64,000 bases of DNA from Acetonema longum DSM 6540 (GTDB taxonomy: Bacteria > Bacillota > Negativicutes > Sporomusales > Acetonemataceae): positions 1 through 64,000 of the forward strand of contig NZ_AFGF01000017.1 in NCBI RefSeq assembly GCF_000219125.1. Direction: 5' to 3'. Below, piece after piece: positions 11,730-57,526 of this stretch (its first letter is position 1; each line of letters opens with the position of its first letter). A model generated the notes under the pieces. The model was given only the letters and a program-made list of their open reading frames with translations, did not search any database and was not told the DNA's origin. Position numbers and translations under genes: made by a program.

Positions 11730-12251
11730 ATGGCGATGAATCTGCGGAAATACAATTGGCCGGTCTGCCTGCTGGCTTTAGCGCTGACGGTTCTGTTACT
11801 GCTCGGCGGCGAAAAGGCCTGGTATCTTTTGGCCAAAGACAAACCTCTGGATCATGCCTTTCAAGGTATAGAAGGGGTGCAGACAGTAAGCCGGACTAGG
11901 GAAGACGGGATTGCCTTACTGCGGGTTACCCTGGGACGGACCGACAATTTTGAAGAAACGTATGAAGCCCTTTGGGCGGCCGCTGAAAAAATTCTGGGCC
12001 AGGGGCAATTTCGTATTCTGCTGCAGGATACACGGACGCCTGAATTGGAGCAATTTTACTACACCGTTCAATATGATGCGGAAGAGGCGGTGCAAACCGG
12101 CCAATTCAGCTCCATGGTCCGGCGGATTGAGGAAAAATCCGGGCAAGCCGGAGTCCGGGCTGCTATCTATGTAGACCGGCAAAGAATCTATTTACATTTT
12201 TCCCGGGCCGATCAGGATATGTACGTCGTAGTGCCGCGAGGGGACCGTTGA
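11730..12251 (+). CDS. membrane-anchored protein, unknown
   Basis: 173 residues: a TM anchor (about 11-30, PVCLLALALTVLLLLGG), then a mixed alpha/beta soluble domain (about 45-170) without recognisable motif. Start either ATG 11730 or, better spaced from AAGAGGAA, ATG 11736. Its last codons GGGGACCGTTGA (Gly-Asp-Arg-stop) are the left end of the REP-like repeat at 12240, so the C-terminus may have been created by that repeat. Lies 242 bp upstream of the FtsH-like gene in the same direction; link not proven. Confidence 0.55.
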   Translation: MAMNLRKYNWPVCLLALALTVLLLLGGEKAWYLLAKDKPLDHAFQGIEGVQTVSRTREDGIALLRVTLGRTDNFEETYEALWAAAEKILGQGQFRILLQDTRTPELEQFYYTVQYDAEEAVQTGQFSSMVRRIEEKSGQAGVRAAIYVDRQRIYLHFSRADQDMYVVVPRGDR

Positions 12252-12442
12252 AAAAGGCCCATCCGCGTCGTTTCAGCCTCCTGTGCGCGCGGCCTCGTCG
12301 CGCTGTATCAGAATTTGCGGCTTTTCGGGAGAACGGTAATGGTGGTGGCCTCTTAGGCTGAAAAGGCGCCTGAGTTCTTCACTAGTACGGAAACGCAAGC
12401 GTTTCTCTTACCTAGCACCTGGACCTTCTTGAACGGTCCCTG
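12240..12442. repeat. REP-like inverted doublet
   Basis: The left end GGGGACCGTTGAAAAAGG (12240-12257) and the right end GGACCTTCTTGAACGGTCCC (12421-12440) are inverted copies of the same short unit, about 200 bp apart; each unit can also form a GGACC/GGTCC mini-hairpin. The unit recurs as single copies at 16222, 17584, 20720, 56222 and 57275. The interior has a TTTCAGCCT...AGGCTGAAA inverted pair, so the whole segment could fold as one long hairpin, like a REPIN or small MITE. Confidence 0.55.
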
Positions 12443-12493
12443 TTTCGACATTGAAGATGAGTTTTACAGCAGAGTATAAAGGGAGGTGACAGC

Positions 12494-14263: not shown

Positions 14264-14450
14264 CTAAATCCCTCCATCCATACTCTATTCGATATTCTGG
14301 GAATCTTGTTGCAAAGCTCATCTGCAGCCTGGAAATGGGCCTTTTTCAAAGGCCCCCAGATAAAAAAATGCTAGTTAAGATCACGTCGCTTAGTATATAC
14401 TATTGCCGTGGGAAGAATTGTGTTCACTATTCATGCCAGGGGAGGGAGCC

Positions 14451-15018: not shown

Positions 15019-16233
15019 ATGAGGAATCTTGCCTGGTATATATTTAATGTATTGTCTGTCGGACTGATTCTCGGCCTAAATGGTCTGGCCTGCATTTTGC
15101 TGGCGCGGCTGTCGGATGTGTATAAGCGCCGCTGGTTTTTACCGGCCTTTTGGTCCATGACGGTGTTGTCGCTGGTGACCTATGGGGCGGGCCGCATCAT
15201 TTCCCTGCGCATGGTGACTGACCAGACAGCTTGGCTGGGTATTCTGGTATATCTGACCATCATCTGGAATGTAGGGGTGATGGTGCTTTTAGCCCTGTTT
15301 CCAGTTTGGTACGGATTGTACCGATTCGGCAACCCGCGGCGCAGAGCAGGGCGGCAGGTGCCGCAGCCGGTATCGGCAGTCAGCCGCCGGCAGTTTATAT
15401 CCGGAGTGCTGACTGCTGCCCCGGTGCTGAGTATGGGTTTGGCTTCCTATGGGGTGGTCAACGCCGAGACCTACATTGCCACTACCCGGATTTCGCTGCC
15501 GTTTCCTTCTTTGCCGGCAGGTTTTGACGGATTGAAGGTGGCGCAGATCTCAGATACGCATCTCGGTCTGTTTTTTTCATTAAAAAAGCTGGATCGCCTA
15601 TTGAATATGATCCGGGAGGAACAGCCTGATTTACTGGTCATCACCGGCGATTTTGTCGATGACCTGGCCTTGCTGCAGCCGGCGCTGGCAAAGATCGAAG
15701 GGCTGCATCCTTCCCTGCCGCTGGGAATTCTGTATTGCCTGGGAAATCACGAGTATTTTCGCGATATTGAGCGGGTGCGCCGGGAGTTTACTCAAAGCTC
15801 CATTCCGTTGCTGGATAATAGGCATGTCCGGCTGCAGCGGGGTAACGATATGCTGTATGTTGCCGGTGTGGACTATCCCTTAACCCATGATGCTTTTGAC
15901 CGGCTGAACGTCGCCAGAAGGTATCTGGATACAGCAATGCAGGGCATTCCGGATCAGGCATTCACGCTTCTTTTGGCCCACCATCCCGACTTCATCACCG
16001 CAGGGTTTGAACGCAATATCCCGCTGAGTCTGACCGGACATACTCATGGCGGTCAAGTGGCGCTTTTTGGGCAAGCTCTTTTTGCCTTCGCCTTTAAATA
16101 TACCCGGGGTTTGTATCAGGAAAAAAATCGGTATGGTTATGTGAGTACCGGGGCGGGTCATTGGATGCCCTTCCGGTTTAACTGTCCGGCGGAGATGGCG
16201 GTCTTTACCCTAAAACGGGCAGGGGACCATTGA
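15019..16233 (+). CDS. membrane-anchored metallophosphoesterase
   Basis: 404 residues from ATG 15019 (the open frame extends upstream inside the preceding gene in another frame). Three TM helices in residues 1-105, then SRRQFISGVLTAAPVLSMG (about 128-146), a twin-arginine-like segment that may be a fourth anchor. The calcineurin-like domain (about 165-400) has all metal motifs: SDTHLG, GDFVDD, GNHEYF, AHHPD and GHTHGG. This is the YkuE/YaeI-like group of extracytoplasmic phosphoesterases. The stop codon lies in a REP-like unit (GGGGACCATTGA). Confidence 0.85.
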   Translation: MRNLAWYIFNVLSVGLILGLNGLACILLARLSDVYKRRWFLPAFWSMTVLSLVTYGAGRIISLRMVTDQTAWLGILVYLTIIWNVGVMVLLALFPVWYGLYRFGNPRRRAGRQVPQPVSAVSRRQFISGVLTAAPVLSMGLASYGVVNAETYIATTRISLPFPSLPAGFDGLKVAQISDTHLGLFFSLKKLDRLLNMIREEQPDLLVITGDFVDDLALLQPALAKIEGLHPSLPLGILYCLGNHEYFRDIERVRREFTQSSIPLLDNRHVRLQRGNDMLYVAGVDYPLTHDAFDRLNVARRYLDTAMQGIPDQAFTLLLAHHPDFITAGFERNIPLSLTGHTHGGQVALFGQALFAFAFKYTRGLYQEKNRYGYVSTGAGHWMPFRFNCPAEMAVFTLKRAGDH

Positions 16234-16261
16234 AAAGACCTGGTTGCGATGGCTTTCAACT
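16222..16261. repeat. REP-like unit at gene 3' end
   Basis: GGGGACCATTGAAAAGACC overlapping the phosphoesterase stop (Gly-Asp-His-stop), with a partly inverted partner CTTTCAACTG at 16252-16261, giving a small hairpin. The rest of the gap to 16422 has no credible gene. Confidence 0.45.
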
Positions 16262-16422
16262 GAATGAGAAAATGGCGGATGTCGGTGAAATACCGGATTA
16301 TCCGCTTTTTTCGTTGGTTGTACAAAGCTGGTCCGGTTATATTGCTTTTTCGGGGCTGGTGGCGGACAATAAGACTATATCTTACAGTGAGCAACAGACG
16401 ATTAGGCAGGAGGTTTTACACT

Positions 16423-17595
16423 ATGACTGATATTAAAGCTTTAGCGGCAGGGCAGAAGGACTATGTGATTTCCCTGCGCCGTCATTTTCACATGTTTCCG
16501 GAACTGGGCGGCGAGGAATACCGGACGCAGGAGAAGGTCATGGAGGAACTGAAAGCGTGCGGCCTTTCGCCACGATCGGCGGCGGGCACCGGGGTCATTG
16601 CTGAATTTACAGGCGGCCGGCCCGGCAAGCGGGTGGCCATCCGGGCGGATATGGATGCCCTGCCGCTGCAGGATGAAATCGATCAACCTTATCGGTCCCA
16701 ACATGCAGGCATCTGCCATGCCTGCGGCCATGACGGTCATACGGCCATGCTGCTGGGGGTGGCCAAAAGCATGAAGTCACTGCAGGCTGAACTGGCCGGC
16801 AGCGTGCGTTTCCTGTTCCAGCCCAGCGAGGAAAAGTTTCCCGGTGGGGCGGAAGCCATGATTGCCGACGGCGCCATGGATGGCGTGGACTATGTGCTGG
16901 GGGCTCACCTTTGGCAGGCGGTGCCTGCCGGCAAAATCGGGGTGACTTATGGTCGGATGATGGCGTCGCCGGATGCGTTTACCCTGACCATTCAGGGGCG
17001 GGGCGGACATGGGTCCATGCCTCATCAGACCGTAGACCCGATCTTTATCGGAGCCCAGATCGTGGTGGCCTTAAAAACGATCACTGGATGCAATATGGAC
17101 CCTATGGAACCGGCGGTATTGTCCCTGGGTATGTTTAAGTCGGGAGAAGCCTTTAACGTGATTCCGGACGTGGCGGTCATCAAAGGGTCGGTCCGTACAT
17201 TCCAGGAAGCGACGCGTCAGCGGATTTTCGAACGGATTCACCAAATCTGCCAGGGGATCTGCCAGGCGTCCGGCGCTCAATATAAATTGGATGCGATTTT
17301 TGGTTATCCGCCGGTTATCAATCATCCGGCAATTTCCAAGGTCATCGCCCAAGCCGGAGAACAAGCCCTGGGCAGGGATGGAGTCATCGAAATTGTACCG
17401 GTACTGGGCGGGGAGGATTTTTCGTTCTATCTGGGAAAGGCTCCCGGCGCCTTTATGTTCGTCGGCGCCGGCAACCCGGAAAAAGGCATTGTCTATCCCC
17501 AACATCACCCTAAATTCGATATTGATGAGACCGCCTTGCCCGGGGGGGTAGAGGTGCTGCTGCGGGCCACTCTTACCTTAGGGGGGGGCCGTTGA
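16423..17595 (+). CDS. M20-family amidohydrolase/carboxypeptidase
   Basis: 390 residues from ATG 16423 with AGGAGG 7 bp upstream. M20D (amidohydrolase/hippurate hydrolase-like) features: RRHFHMFPELGGEEYRT, RADMDALPLQ, CHACGHDGHTAMLLG (metal Cys and His), FQPSEEKFPGGAEAM (catalytic Glu), the dimerisation-domain motif GRGGHGSMPH, and LGGEDFSFYL. Cytosolic; removes the acyl or aminoacyl group from an N-substituted amino acid. The C-terminal LGGGR-stop is again formed by a REP-like unit (GGGGGCCGTTGAAAAAGG). Confidence 0.88.
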   Translation: MTDIKALAAGQKDYVISLRRHFHMFPELGGEEYRTQEKVMEELKACGLSPRSAAGTGVIAEFTGGRPGKRVAIRADMDALPLQDEIDQPYRSQHAGICHACGHDGHTAMLLGVAKSMKSLQAELAGSVRFLFQPSEEKFPGGAEAMIADGAMDGVDYVLGAHLWQAVPAGKIGVTYGRMMASPDAFTLTIQGRGGHGSMPHQTVDPIFIGAQIVVALKTITGCNMDPMEPAVLSLGMFKSGEAFNVIPDVAVIKGSVRTFQEATRQRIFERIHQICQGICQASGAQYKLDAIFGYPPVINHPAISKVIAQAGEQALGRDGVIEIVPVLGGEDFSFYLGKAPGAFMFVGAGNPEKGIVYPQHHPKFDIDETALPGGVEVLLRATLTLGGGR

Positions 17596-17601
17596 AAAAG
17601 G
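17584..17601. repeat. REP-like unit at gene 3' end
   Basis: GGGGGCCGTTGAAAAAGG overlaps the amidohydrolase stop codon; one base from the copy at 12240. Confidence 0.5.
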
Positions 17602-17707
17602 CTACGCTGAAAAGTCCAATGGTTCACAGAAATGGGAAGCTTATGATATAATGGTACCAGATCGTTCTTTCGGGATAATCTGGGATCAGAGGAGTGGAGC
17701 AAAACAT

Positions 17708-20090: not shown

Positions 20091-20720
20091 ATGGATTATG
20101 TACTGTATTTTGTGGAACAACATGTCCGGATCATCACTGCCACCTGGGAACATATCCTGCTGACGGTCGCTGCGGTGGGGGCTGCGGTGCTTTGTGCGAT
20201 TCCGGCCGGAATTCTCTTATCCCGTCATAAACAGTCGCAAAAACCGGTGTTTGCAGTTGTGAATACGATACAGACCGTCCCAAGTTTGGCCCTTTTGGGC
20301 TTCATGATCCCGTTGCTGGGCCTGGGCGATACGCCGGCGGTTGTAGCCCTGTTTCTCTACGCATTGCTGCCGATTTTGCGCAATACGGTCATTGGAATGG
20401 ACGGAGTGGACAAAGGGATGCTGGAGGCCGCCACCGGCATGGGTATGACCCGGTGGCAGATTTTGTGGCGGGTCGAATTGCCACTGGCGATGCCTACCAT
20501 TCTGGCCGGCATCCGGATCGCTACAATCGTGATCATTGGCTGGGCAACATTAGCCGCCTATGTAGGCGGCAGCGGCCTGGGGAGGCTGATTGTCGCCGGC
20601 CTGGCTACCGCCCGGCTGAAGCTGGTGGTGGCAGGCGCCGTTCCGGCCGTAATTCTGGCGCTGGGCGCCAATTATTTACTGAGCTGCATTGAGAGAAGGC
20701 TGCGCGTAAGCAGAGCCTAG
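20091..20720 (+). CDS. osmoprotectant ABC transporter permease (OpuCD/OpuBD-like)
   Basis: 209 residues, homologous to the preceding permease, with GMGMTRWQILWRVELPLAMPTILAGIRIA as the ATPase-coupling loop. It would form the heterodimeric channel with its neighbour. ATG preceded by GAGGGTGATGCT. A REP-like unit (GAGACCGTTGCAAAA) begins at its stop codon. 113 bp with a TGACTGC/GCAGTCA hairpin separate it from the binding-protein gene. Confidence 0.88.
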   Translation: MDYVLYFVEQHVRIITATWEHILLTVAAVGAAVLCAIPAGILLSRHKQSQKPVFAVVNTIQTVPSLALLGFMIPLLGLGDTPAVVALFLYALLPILRNTVIGMDGVDKGMLEAATGMGMTRWQILWRVELPLAMPTILAGIRIATIVIIGWATLAAYVGGSGLGRLIVAGLATARLKLVVAGAVPAVILALGANYLLSCIERRLRVSRA

Positions 20721-20833
20721 AGGAGACCGTTGCAAAACTCCGTTATTTCCGAGCCGCAAGTGACTGCAGGAGCAGTCAGGCAGATAGGATTTTTGCAGCC
20801 GCCTCCTGGGAGCAGAATAAAGGGAGGAATACG

Positions 20834-36538: not shown

Positions 36539-37444
36539 ATGGCGAACGATCAAAACCGGTTAACTGAGGTTCAAAGAAAATACCTGCAGATGCTCAGTCA
36601 AATGCAGCAGCCCCGGCAAGGGCAGAACTTCCATTATGGCGCGGCGAATGCCATAGCGGATATTGGAAGCGCGATCATTAAGCGGAATGCTGAAAAGGGC
36701 CAGGTGAAAGCCATGACTGAACAATACCAGCAACCAGGCCAGCAGCCGAATTTTAACCAATGGCAGCAGGGGCCTCTGGGAGCGGGCCTATCAGGACAGC
36801 CGCAATTCGACCAATGGAAGCAAGGTCCTCTGGGAGTCGGTATGAATAATCAACAACAGCAGCCGCAATACGATTACAACTTTTCAGGGCCTGGAGTGCT
36901 TAGCGATAACACGCCGCAGAATCCTGCACAGATGGGCCAACAGCCGAATTTTAACCAATGGAAGCAAGGCTCCCTGGGGCAGCAGCCTAACCAAGGAGGC
37001 TCAGCGATTGCCTGCTTTATCGGCTCAACCGTGATCTCAACTCCGACAGTCGATAAGCAGATTAAGGATATCCGAGTCGGGGACAAGATTATTTCCCTGG
37101 ATGTGCATGACAAGCCTTGTATTGAAGAAGTTATAGAAGTGATGGAGCCTTGCATATCGCCGAATAATTATGTTTTTGTCAACGCGAAAAAGCAGTGTAA
37201 AGCCGGAGAGCCGTTGCAGACAATCTCAGTCGGTACTACCGATACACAGCCTTTTCTAACGGTTGATGGCCTGGCAAATGCTACAGCAGCGGCGTTAACC
37301 GGGAGAAAGCTCATCGGGCTCCGGGGTATAAAAGAAGTCGTCTCTATTACTGTGAACGCAGACAAGGAGCCGGTCTATGACCTTAAAACCACGGGCCGGA
37401 ATATCTATTTTGCAAACGGCTTCGCGGTTAAGGGGAGGGATTGA
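36539..37444 (+). CDS. Q-rich phage-like protein fused to a Hint (intein-like) domain
   Basis: 301 residues. N-terminal 60 (YGAANAIADIGSAIIKRNAEKGQVKAMTEQYQQP) are shared with the next gene. Then repeats of PNFNQWKQGPLG (three to four copies, about 62-155). From about residue 158 a Hint fold: CFIGSTVISTPTVDKQIKDIRVGDKIISLD (block A with Cys1), TDTQPFLTVDGL (block B, but Gln where the catalytic His should be) and VYDLKTTGRNIYFANGFAVKG (block F) ending the protein without the His-Asn of block G and without a C-extein. Splicing is impossible as encoded; N-terminal cleavage at Ala-Cys might remain. AAGGAG RBS; next gene 2 bp away. Confidence 0.7.
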   Translation: MANDQNRLTEVQRKYLQMLSQMQQPRQGQNFHYGAANAIADIGSAIIKRNAEKGQVKAMTEQYQQPGQQPNFNQWQQGPLGAGLSGQPQFDQWKQGPLGVGMNNQQQQPQYDYNFSGPGVLSDNTPQNPAQMGQQPNFNQWKQGSLGQQPNQGGSAIACFIGSTVISTPTVDKQIKDIRVGDKIISLDVHDKPCIEEVIEVMEPCISPNNYVFVNAKKQCKAGEPLQTISVGTTDTQPFLTVDGLANATAAALTGRKLIGLRGIKEVVSITVNADKEPVYDLKTTGRNIYFANGFAVKGRD

Positions 37445-37445
37445 T

Positions 37446-38675
37446 ATGGCCTATGGATGGGCAAATGCCCTCGCAGATATCGGCAGTGCTATAATCAAGA
37501 GAAATGCAGACCGGGGAGCTGTAAACAGCCTAACTGAACAATATCAGCAACCAGCACAGGATTTACCCGGCGCGGATCAGTGGAAATACGGGCCGCTTGG
37601 CGCCGGGCAGAATACCGGCGGTCTGCCTAATCAGAGCCCCTTCAGTTCGCAAACGCAAGCGGGTTTAGGCGTATCTGTCCCGCCGGAGATCCAACAGGCG
37701 GCCAATCTTCAGCCGCAGCAGCCGACACAACCTCAAACGCTGCAGGACTTTCAGAAAAAGCATTACGGCAATATCCGGGGTAAGGCTCTTGCCTATATTA
37801 AAACCGGTATGTCGCCGATAGATGCGGCCAGGCTGGCAAGAAGCCAGGCCATGGAAGCTGCTGAACAGGAATACACTCCTGTTCGGCAACAATATCAAGC
37901 GACGGCGCAGGACGAACTCGGCGACGCTTTTTCGTCTGGAGATGCCCGGCAGATTATGGCGGCTGCCAATAAATACAACAAAGGGGCTTCTCAGTACGGC
38001 TATGATAAGGCTGATACCCAAATGCTGACCATGGCTATAAGAGCTGGAGCCAAGAGCTTTACTACTCAGCAAGAACAGGGTGAGGATGGTAAGATTTACA
38101 ATGTGACCTATGCTCAGACCCCGGACGGCCAGATGGCAGAGGTTCACAGGGGGCTGTCGGGAGCGAATGTTTCAGCTGCTACTGATAGAATCCGGGCTCT
38201 GGCAGCTCGTAATAATGCGAGTACTAAGTCGATCAGCATTCCCGGCATGGGCAGTCTGACGATGAACGAATACTTTAGCCAGCTGAATAACGCGCGCCCG
38301 AAAAGGCGGGAGACCACAGATATCTACGGCAATAAGACCTACATTGATGAGGGAAATCCGGAAGTATATAACCTTCTTCGTCAGCACATGCCCCAGGAGC
38401 TCAACGGGCAGCCGCTTCAGCAGCAAACGCAACAGTCGCAAGGCAGCATACAAGATGTTGAATCGGGGTACATCCAGGAGGCATTGTCTAACAATATTTC
38501 TCCTGCGCAAATAGCACAAGGTATACGAGCCAGAATGCCGGAACTCCAGGCCCAGGGTGTAGATGTTAATGCACTCTTGGCAATGGTTGAACAGCCACAA
38601 CAAACACAACCCGCGCCGCCGGCACAAGGGCAAACTACTGTTGATTGGAGTCAATACACGCCTTGGAGTGAATAG
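37446..38675 (+). CDS. Q-rich phage-like protein, paralogue of the preceding one
   Basis: 409 residues from ATG 37446 (AAGGGGAGGG inside the previous gene's end). N-terminus AYGWANALADIGSAIIKRNADRGAVNSLTEQYQQP...DQWKYGPLGAG parallels the Hint protein. Then helical Q/A-rich sequence (HYGNIRGKALAYIKTGMSPIDAARLARSQAM; YTPVRQQYQATAQDELGDAFSSGDARQIMAAANKYN) and a C-terminus of low complexity ending DWSQYTPWSE. Composition and neighbours suggest a virion internal/ejection-type protein of a podovirus-like phage; not proven. Confidence 0.55.
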   Translation: MAYGWANALADIGSAIIKRNADRGAVNSLTEQYQQPAQDLPGADQWKYGPLGAGQNTGGLPNQSPFSSQTQAGLGVSVPPEIQQAANLQPQQPTQPQTLQDFQKKHYGNIRGKALAYIKTGMSPIDAARLARSQAMEAAEQEYTPVRQQYQATAQDELGDAFSSGDARQIMAAANKYNKGASQYGYDKADTQMLTMAIRAGAKSFTTQQEQGEDGKIYNVTYAQTPDGQMAEVHRGLSGANVSAATDRIRALAARNNASTKSISIPGMGSLTMNEYFSQLNNARPKRRETTDIYGNKTYIDEGNPEVYNLLRQHMPQELNGQPLQQQTQQSQGSIQDVESGYIQEALSNNISPAQIAQGIRARMPELQAQGVDVNALLAMVEQPQQTQPAPPAQGQTTVDWSQYTPWSE

Positions 38676-56171: not shown

Positions 56172-56219
56172 AGGGTTAGCTATAAACTTTTTGAAAACCC
56201 GTCTGCAGCCGCGAATCCA

Positions 56220-56241
56220 GGACCCTTTTCAACGGTCCCCG
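56220..56241. repeat. REP-like unit after lexA
   Basis: Minus strand CGGGGACCGTTGAAAAGGGTCC begins right after the lexA stop codon; GGACC/GGTCC can pair. Confidence 0.5.
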
Positions 56242-57265: not shown

Positions 57266-57291
57266 GCTGGCCCGTCCCTTTCAACGATTCC
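57266..57291. repeat. REP-like unit at gene 3' end
   Basis: Minus strand GGGAATCGTTGAAAGGGAC overlaps the stop of the TSCPD-domain gene (Gly-Asn-Arg-stop). Confidence 0.4.
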
Positions 57292-57526
57292 CTAAGTTCT
57301 CAAGGGCGATGGCTAACTGATCCGCACAGGACGTAGGGCGATTGCCGCAGCGGTTGCCTTTACATTTATTAATGACTTGCTCTACCGGCATTCCTTCGAC
57401 CAATTTGCTGATCGCCGTCAGATTGCCGGGACAGCCGCCAATAAAGTTCAATTTTTTGATGATGCCGTTTTCTACTTCGATTTGAATTTGCGAGGAACAT
57501 ACACCTTGTGTTTTAAATGTAATCAT
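57281..57526 (-). CDS. TSCPD-domain (TIGR03905-like) protein
   Basis: 81 residues. TQGVCSSQIQIEVENGIIKKLNFIGGCPGNLTAISKLVEGM ... KCKGNRCGNRPTSCADQLAIAL: the four-cysteine TSCPD family, related to the C-terminal domain of some ribonucleotide reductases; probably metal-binding. Good AGGAGTC site. Function unknown. Confidence 0.82.
   Translation of the reverse strand: MITFKTQGVCSSQIQIEVENGIIKKLNFIGGCPGNLTAISKLVEGMPVEQVINKCKGNRCGNRPTSCADQLAIALENLGNR

Follow-up and report, generated by a model that had tools for sequence, protein, structure and literature searches.

Why should a short dispersed repeat form the stop codons of unrelated genes? The initial annotation of the window (the 64,000-nt stretch analysed here, which is the start of contig C17 in a genome of 4.32 Mb and 295 contigs) listed repeat units at 12240, 16222, 17584, 20720, 56220 and 57266, most of them supplying the last codons and stop of a gene. 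All six are present in the sense orientation described for them, with the repeat providing the endings GDR (12240), GDH (16222), GGR (17584), and GNR (57281-57292, minus strand, in an 86-codon frame), and with the 20720 arm placed right after a stop. Searching the window with GGGGACCGTTGAAAAGG at up to 3 mismatches gives 6 matches against 0.16 expected from dinucleotide shuffling, a set that takes in 14341-14357, absent from the earlier list, and leaves out the 20720 unit. Across the genome, GGGACCGTTGAAAA at up to 1 mismatch yields 193 matches compared with 1 for the reversed control, with counts in 60 relatives at the control level, essentially zero.

The repeat unit forms the left end (LE) of a two-ended, modular element of ~50–390 bp. 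In the anatomy derived by reading 30 copies, the LE GRGACCGTTGAAAAAGGCCCATCTGCG is followed by an inner right arm, GCATCTGGACCTTTTTGAACGGTCCC, and then by an outer tail ending ..CGCAGATGAGTTTTGCAACAGRYTC-(C)TAG, with optional palindromic modules between the arms giving size classes of ~50, 130–170, 220–290, and 390 bp. The element carries terminal inverted repeats, as a MITE does. Profile and copy analysis drew on 820 kb in eight contigs plus the match loci, and the profile searches recovered 62 copies in the 820 kb, 46 of them two-ended, 10 left-only, and 6 right-only. Near position 1500 of locus L088 (G000:C26:16220-16265) lies a 46-bp palindrome, GAGACCATTGCAAAAGCCCCCC/GGGGGGCTTTTGCAATGGTCTC, that is almost perfect and appears to consist of two outer family arms in head-to-head junction. 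Within the window, the copies and the features that they create are as follows.

12240-12474, plus strand: full element of the ~240-bp class, with left arm 12240-12265, inner right arm ~12418-12442, and outer tail to ~12474.
12240-12251, plus strand: final codons of the 11730-12251 gene together with its stop (..VVPR-GDR, then stop), supplied by the element.
12477-12486, plus strand: putative original stop TAA (12477-12479), then Shine-Dalgarno AGGGAGG, with the flanks joined by eye.
14305-14357, minus strand: compact copy, uncoupled and lying antisense to the gene on its left, overlooked by the earlier reader.
16222-16265, plus strand: degenerate compact copy, giving ..GDH and a stop to a metallophosphatase-like gene ending at 16233.
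17584-17602, plus strand: left arm only, giving ..GGR and a stop to a peptidase M20 gene ending at 17595.
20721-20741, plus strand: lone outer-right-type arm (GGAGACCGTTGCAAAACTC), directly after TAG 20718-20720 of an ABC permease gene.
56181-56240, minus strand: compact copy, 1 nt after TAA 56242-56244 of a lexA-like gene.
57270-57292, minus strand: degenerate left arm, giving ..GNR and a stop to an 86-codon open frame, with the stop at 57281.

The unit at 12240 and the inverted partner listed with it together make up a single element of ~235 bp, of which each is one arm, with profile hits for the LE at 12239-12268 (35.7 bits) and for the right end at 12411-12478 (58.5 bits), and a predicted fold that pairs the two arms. 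Behind this element lies TATAA followed by AGGGAGG, an arrangement consistent with the element having displaced the original stop and Shine-Dalgarno to its far side. Among orthologs of the 11730-12251 gene, one relative ends exactly at ..VVPR and others end 3–9 residues later, and orthologs of the peptidase M20 gene end 0–4 residues past the common core. Since the orthologs end within 0–9 residues of the core, truncating insertion deep in genes is rejected for the two genes tested, with the element lying at the native C-terminus and swapping only the last few residues. The 16222 copy, a 2-mismatch pattern match below the profile threshold, was identified by its LE match and TTTCAAC tail. Elsewhere in the window, at 36635-37559, two adjacent ORFs contain a diverged direct repeat (108 nt, 70% identity) that includes sub-repeats of 44 nt.

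Scoring a copy as coupled where a sense reading frame of 100 codons or more stops between -12 and +5 of GTTG, 38/72 copies in the window's genome are stop-coupled, compared with 0–4/72 at positions shifted by 20–200 nt. The observed 53% stands against null expectations of 4.9% for any noncoding position, 7.5% for YTAR sites, and 8.7% for NTAR sites, and a YTAR target alone is therefore rejected as the full cause of the stop bias (null 7.5–8.7%). The commonest registers are a TAG ending at -6 from GTTG, and the element's own TGA (GTTGA) at +5. The flank reads TAG where a copy is stop-coupled, and elsewhere it is mostly NNAG. The genome-wide count against stop codons that had been proposed as a check thus reveals a stop preference, rather than the spread without preference that had been named as refutation. 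Coupling is not confined to short intergenic gaps, persisting where spacing is 100–300 bp, and is independent of divergence, with 13/23 perfect copies and 13/24 copies with at least 3 mismatches coupled; slow purging of uncoupled copies is unsupported by this equality. About half of the copies are uncoupled, and ~40–50% point at the 5' end of the left gene, often ~15–40 bp ahead of its start codon, so orientation is not fixed genome-wide. The claim that the repeat always lies in the sense of the gene consequently holds for the listed units, but not for the genome, where ~40–50% of copies oppose the left gene. Contigs C14, C30, C170, and C295 of this genome start or end within or near a repeat copy, and copies at assembly breaks are under-counted because several contigs begin or end in this way.

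One suggestion of the initial annotation, a role in the 3' ends of mRNAs, is not supported. An ordinary terminator-like hairpin lies downstream of 5/13 gene-terminal coupled copies, and only 2/30 coupled copies hold such a hairpin inside, so a terminator role is rejected, with native terminators retained behind an element that seldom contains one. The element does possess a hairpin of its own, with the left and inner right arms pairing over 26 positions apart from fixed exceptions (G.G in 97/103, T.C/C.T in ~95/103, and mostly C.A), and with the bottom strand folding slightly better than the top in 83/103. Compensatory double changes within single copies number 25 in the window's genome, a count to which subfamily ancestry contributes, compared with 7.7 ± 2.2 when the right arms are shuffled. 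Other possible sources of this co-variation of the arms are coevolution of the ends with an enzyme, subfamily ancestry, and hairpin-templated repair. Stem integrity in the window's genome is alike in coupled (0.933) and uncoupled (0.920) copies, and as the hairpin is equally kept in copies away from stops, its upkeep points to a service to the element rather than to the mRNA.

The family extends well beyond this genome. The exact 21-nt core GTTGAAAAAGGCCCATCTGCG occurs in 22 stretches labelled by genome as Deltaproteobacteria, Syntrophobacteria, Rokubacteria, Gemmatimonadetes, and Sporomusa, and 14/14 of the genomes re-searched contain matches, 11 of them having 8–59 copies, with zero control matches. 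Coupling in four further sets stands at 15/22, 10/23, 10/31, and 8/18, with one of these sets using TGA and TAA stops besides TAG. Stop coupling is strong in at least five genomes, and the register is common to unrelated genomes where tested. The element gave no match to Rfam at the gathering score in the window, with one sub-threshold hit in ten loci, and no match in plasmid and phage collections; the open literature searched held nothing on its core sequences. Four relatives (G002, G009, G013, and G016, of family f2, genus g3) have several copies each of another repeat, GGGACCGTTGATAA, one of which faces a GGGACCGTTTAAAA 178 bp apart (G009:C2:55880-56057); these repeats may represent a branch of the family studied here that has diverged.

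In one Syntrophobacteria genome, reading by eye found five exact 4-bp target duplications (ATAG/ATAG, TTAG/TTAG twice, CTAA/CTAA, and CTAG/CTAG). Some 4-bp flank pairs disagree, for example TTAG/CTAG and TTAG/CTAA, and the signal of target duplication in the genome of the window is weak (8/28, permutation p = 0.04). Among the DUF772, DDE_Tnp_1, and Y1_Tnp genes near the family, none has ends that match those of the element. IS1182/IS5-type transposases are present in the window's genome but with other ends, excluding them as partners, and DUF772 gave no match in six other family-bearing genomes. The look-up of RAYT genes suggested by the initial annotation was equally negative, with RAYT genes never flanked by the studied repeat: the two full-length RAYT-like (Y1_Tnp) genes of the window's genome are flanked by other repeats, GGACGGTTCT and GGGGACGGGG, and 29 Y1_Tnp loci in six other genomes are likewise without family ends, so RAYT is rejected as partner. 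A search for Y1_Tnp in a Gemmatimonadetes genome carrying 35 copies gave no match.

Three further observations concern other repeats and Y1_Tnp sequences. The RAYT-like genes L031 and L032 (contigs C134 and C76) each have their own flanking short repeat (GTGTCAGGGGACGGGGT and GGACGGTTCTCTTGTT respectively). In genome G063, an identical 42-codon Y1_Tnp fragment recurs at ~13 contig ends (L263-L275), which suggests that this assembly is broken by a multi-copy IS200-like element. CRISPR-like repeats (GTTTCAATCCACGTGCCC...) in two variants occur on contigs C17, C49, and C56 of the window's genome, for example near 120272 of C49, and make up 112 copies of the top 12-mers in 451 kb.

The proposal of a mobile REP/MITE near stops fares best, with the family repeated, two-ended, hairpin-forming, accompanied by some target duplications, and stop-coupled in at least five genomes. 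The family is probably a small non-autonomous REP/MITE-like mobile element without coding capacity, with its left end on stop codons in about half of the copies, and is best read as a new REP/MITE-like family whose left-end placement at stops is unusually strict. A putative enzyme would insert the element at short YTAR/NNAG targets, with gene-end sites (the stop codon, or a position just before the Shine-Dalgarno) appearing strongly over-represented among present copies. The junction would usually leave the gene a stop, provided by the target (TAG/TAA) or by the element (the TGA within GTTGA), at a presumed cost to the protein of the last few residues only, and the endings GDR, GDH, GGR, and GNR would arise because the junction supplies the stop in one of these two ways. 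The hairpin would be kept for the element's own spread, and not for host mRNA. That the machinery of a cross-phylum, RAYT-independent element itself targets stop codons, in a fixed left-end register and orientation such that the upstream gene keeps its stop, we consider unlikely.

Stop coupling may possibly, at somewhat less than even chances, reflect survivorship only, with insertions elsewhere purged and the interval between stop and terminator the least harmful place to be. The genome is ~87% coding, proteins lose just a few residues, and E. coli REPs show a similar share, 260/496 having a stop no more than 15 nt away (figure quoted in PMC12306157). Survivorship sits less easily with the near absence of sense copies elsewhere in 3' untranslated regions, where antisense copies lie at variable distances, with the persistence of coupling at 100–300 bp of intergenic space, and with coupling as high in undiverged as in diverged copies. 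A selected role for the element as a regulatory RNA at mRNA 3' ends, in translation termination, 3'-end stability, or ribosome stalling, is quite improbable. Whilst the register on stop codons is fixed in several phyla, the transcribed hairpin is stable and bears compensatory changes, and ribosome stalling is reported for E. coli REPs up to 15 nt from a stop (PMC12306157), stem integrity is equal in uncoupled copies, roughly half of the copies lie away from stops, gene-terminal copies often keep an ordinary terminator that the element itself rarely has, hosts and gene functions are unrelated, and the element is absent from nearly all relatives. A classical REP/REPIN moved by a RAYT (Y1 transposase) is very unlikely. 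A TAG tag beside a hairpin with a fixed mismatch would suit such an origin, as would the presence of RAYT-like genes in the window's genome and the published observation that GTAG REPs lie near stops and donate TAG stops (PMC3733652), however the two full-length genes here carry other flanking repeats, none of the 29 loci elsewhere adjoins the family, and the 35-copy Gemmatimonadetes genome lacks a Y1_Tnp match. REPs also do not show the family's length, which reaches 390 bp, or its apparent duplications of 4 bp.

As a probable REP/MITE-like element, the family invites comparison with several known systems. The BOX elements of Streptococcus pneumoniae form hairpins and combine two end modules with internal modules that vary in number, and are likened to the family by this module architecture. 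Integron attC sites are structured imperfect palindromes right after gene stops, in which unpaired bases are conserved and the middle varies, and the family shares each of these traits. In attC, however, the order is RYYYAAC ... GTTRRRY and the sites form arrays, whereas the arms of the family read GTTGAAAAA ... TTTTTGAAC, with GTT and AAC reversed, and its copies are dispersed singly. GTAG REPs adjoin the 3' ends of ORFs and often provide a TAG stop (Di Nocera et al. 2013, PMC3733652), and Murashko et al. 2025 (PMC12306157) quote an earlier study that proposed a translational role for the 260 of 496 E. coli REPs whose distance to a stop is at most 15 nt. The stop-codon phenomenon is thus known in kind, since the proximity of REPs to stops is already published. 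Like GTAG REPs, BIMEs, and REPINs, the family lies near ORF 3' ends and supplies stop codons; unlike these palindromes of 20–40 bp, it is modular and spans 50–390 bp. Its tag is TAG/NNAG, compared with the unpaired GTAG or CGTC of REPs, and it differs from GTAG REPs further in lacking a flanked RAYT at the loci tested, in its apparent 4-bp duplications, and in a core common to several phyla. The MITE Chunjie, of 178–235 bp with many partial copies and found inserted in an operon of the deltaproteobacterium Geobacter uraniireducens (review PMC10969869), is alike in size and in its partial copies, a comparison made by description only, and the review's account of it carries no stop-codon statement; Chunjie may be a relative of the family.

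The family differs from the known cases in its length, its cross-phylum exact core, and its RAYT independence, and is missing from Rfam. Genome annotation stands to benefit, because repeats are the source of many C-terminal ends such as -GDR. With a stop position that is found again in distant genomes, does not depend on how far a copy has diverged, and is separable from hairpin maintenance, the family makes testable the question of why bacterial palindromic repeats sit on stop codons.
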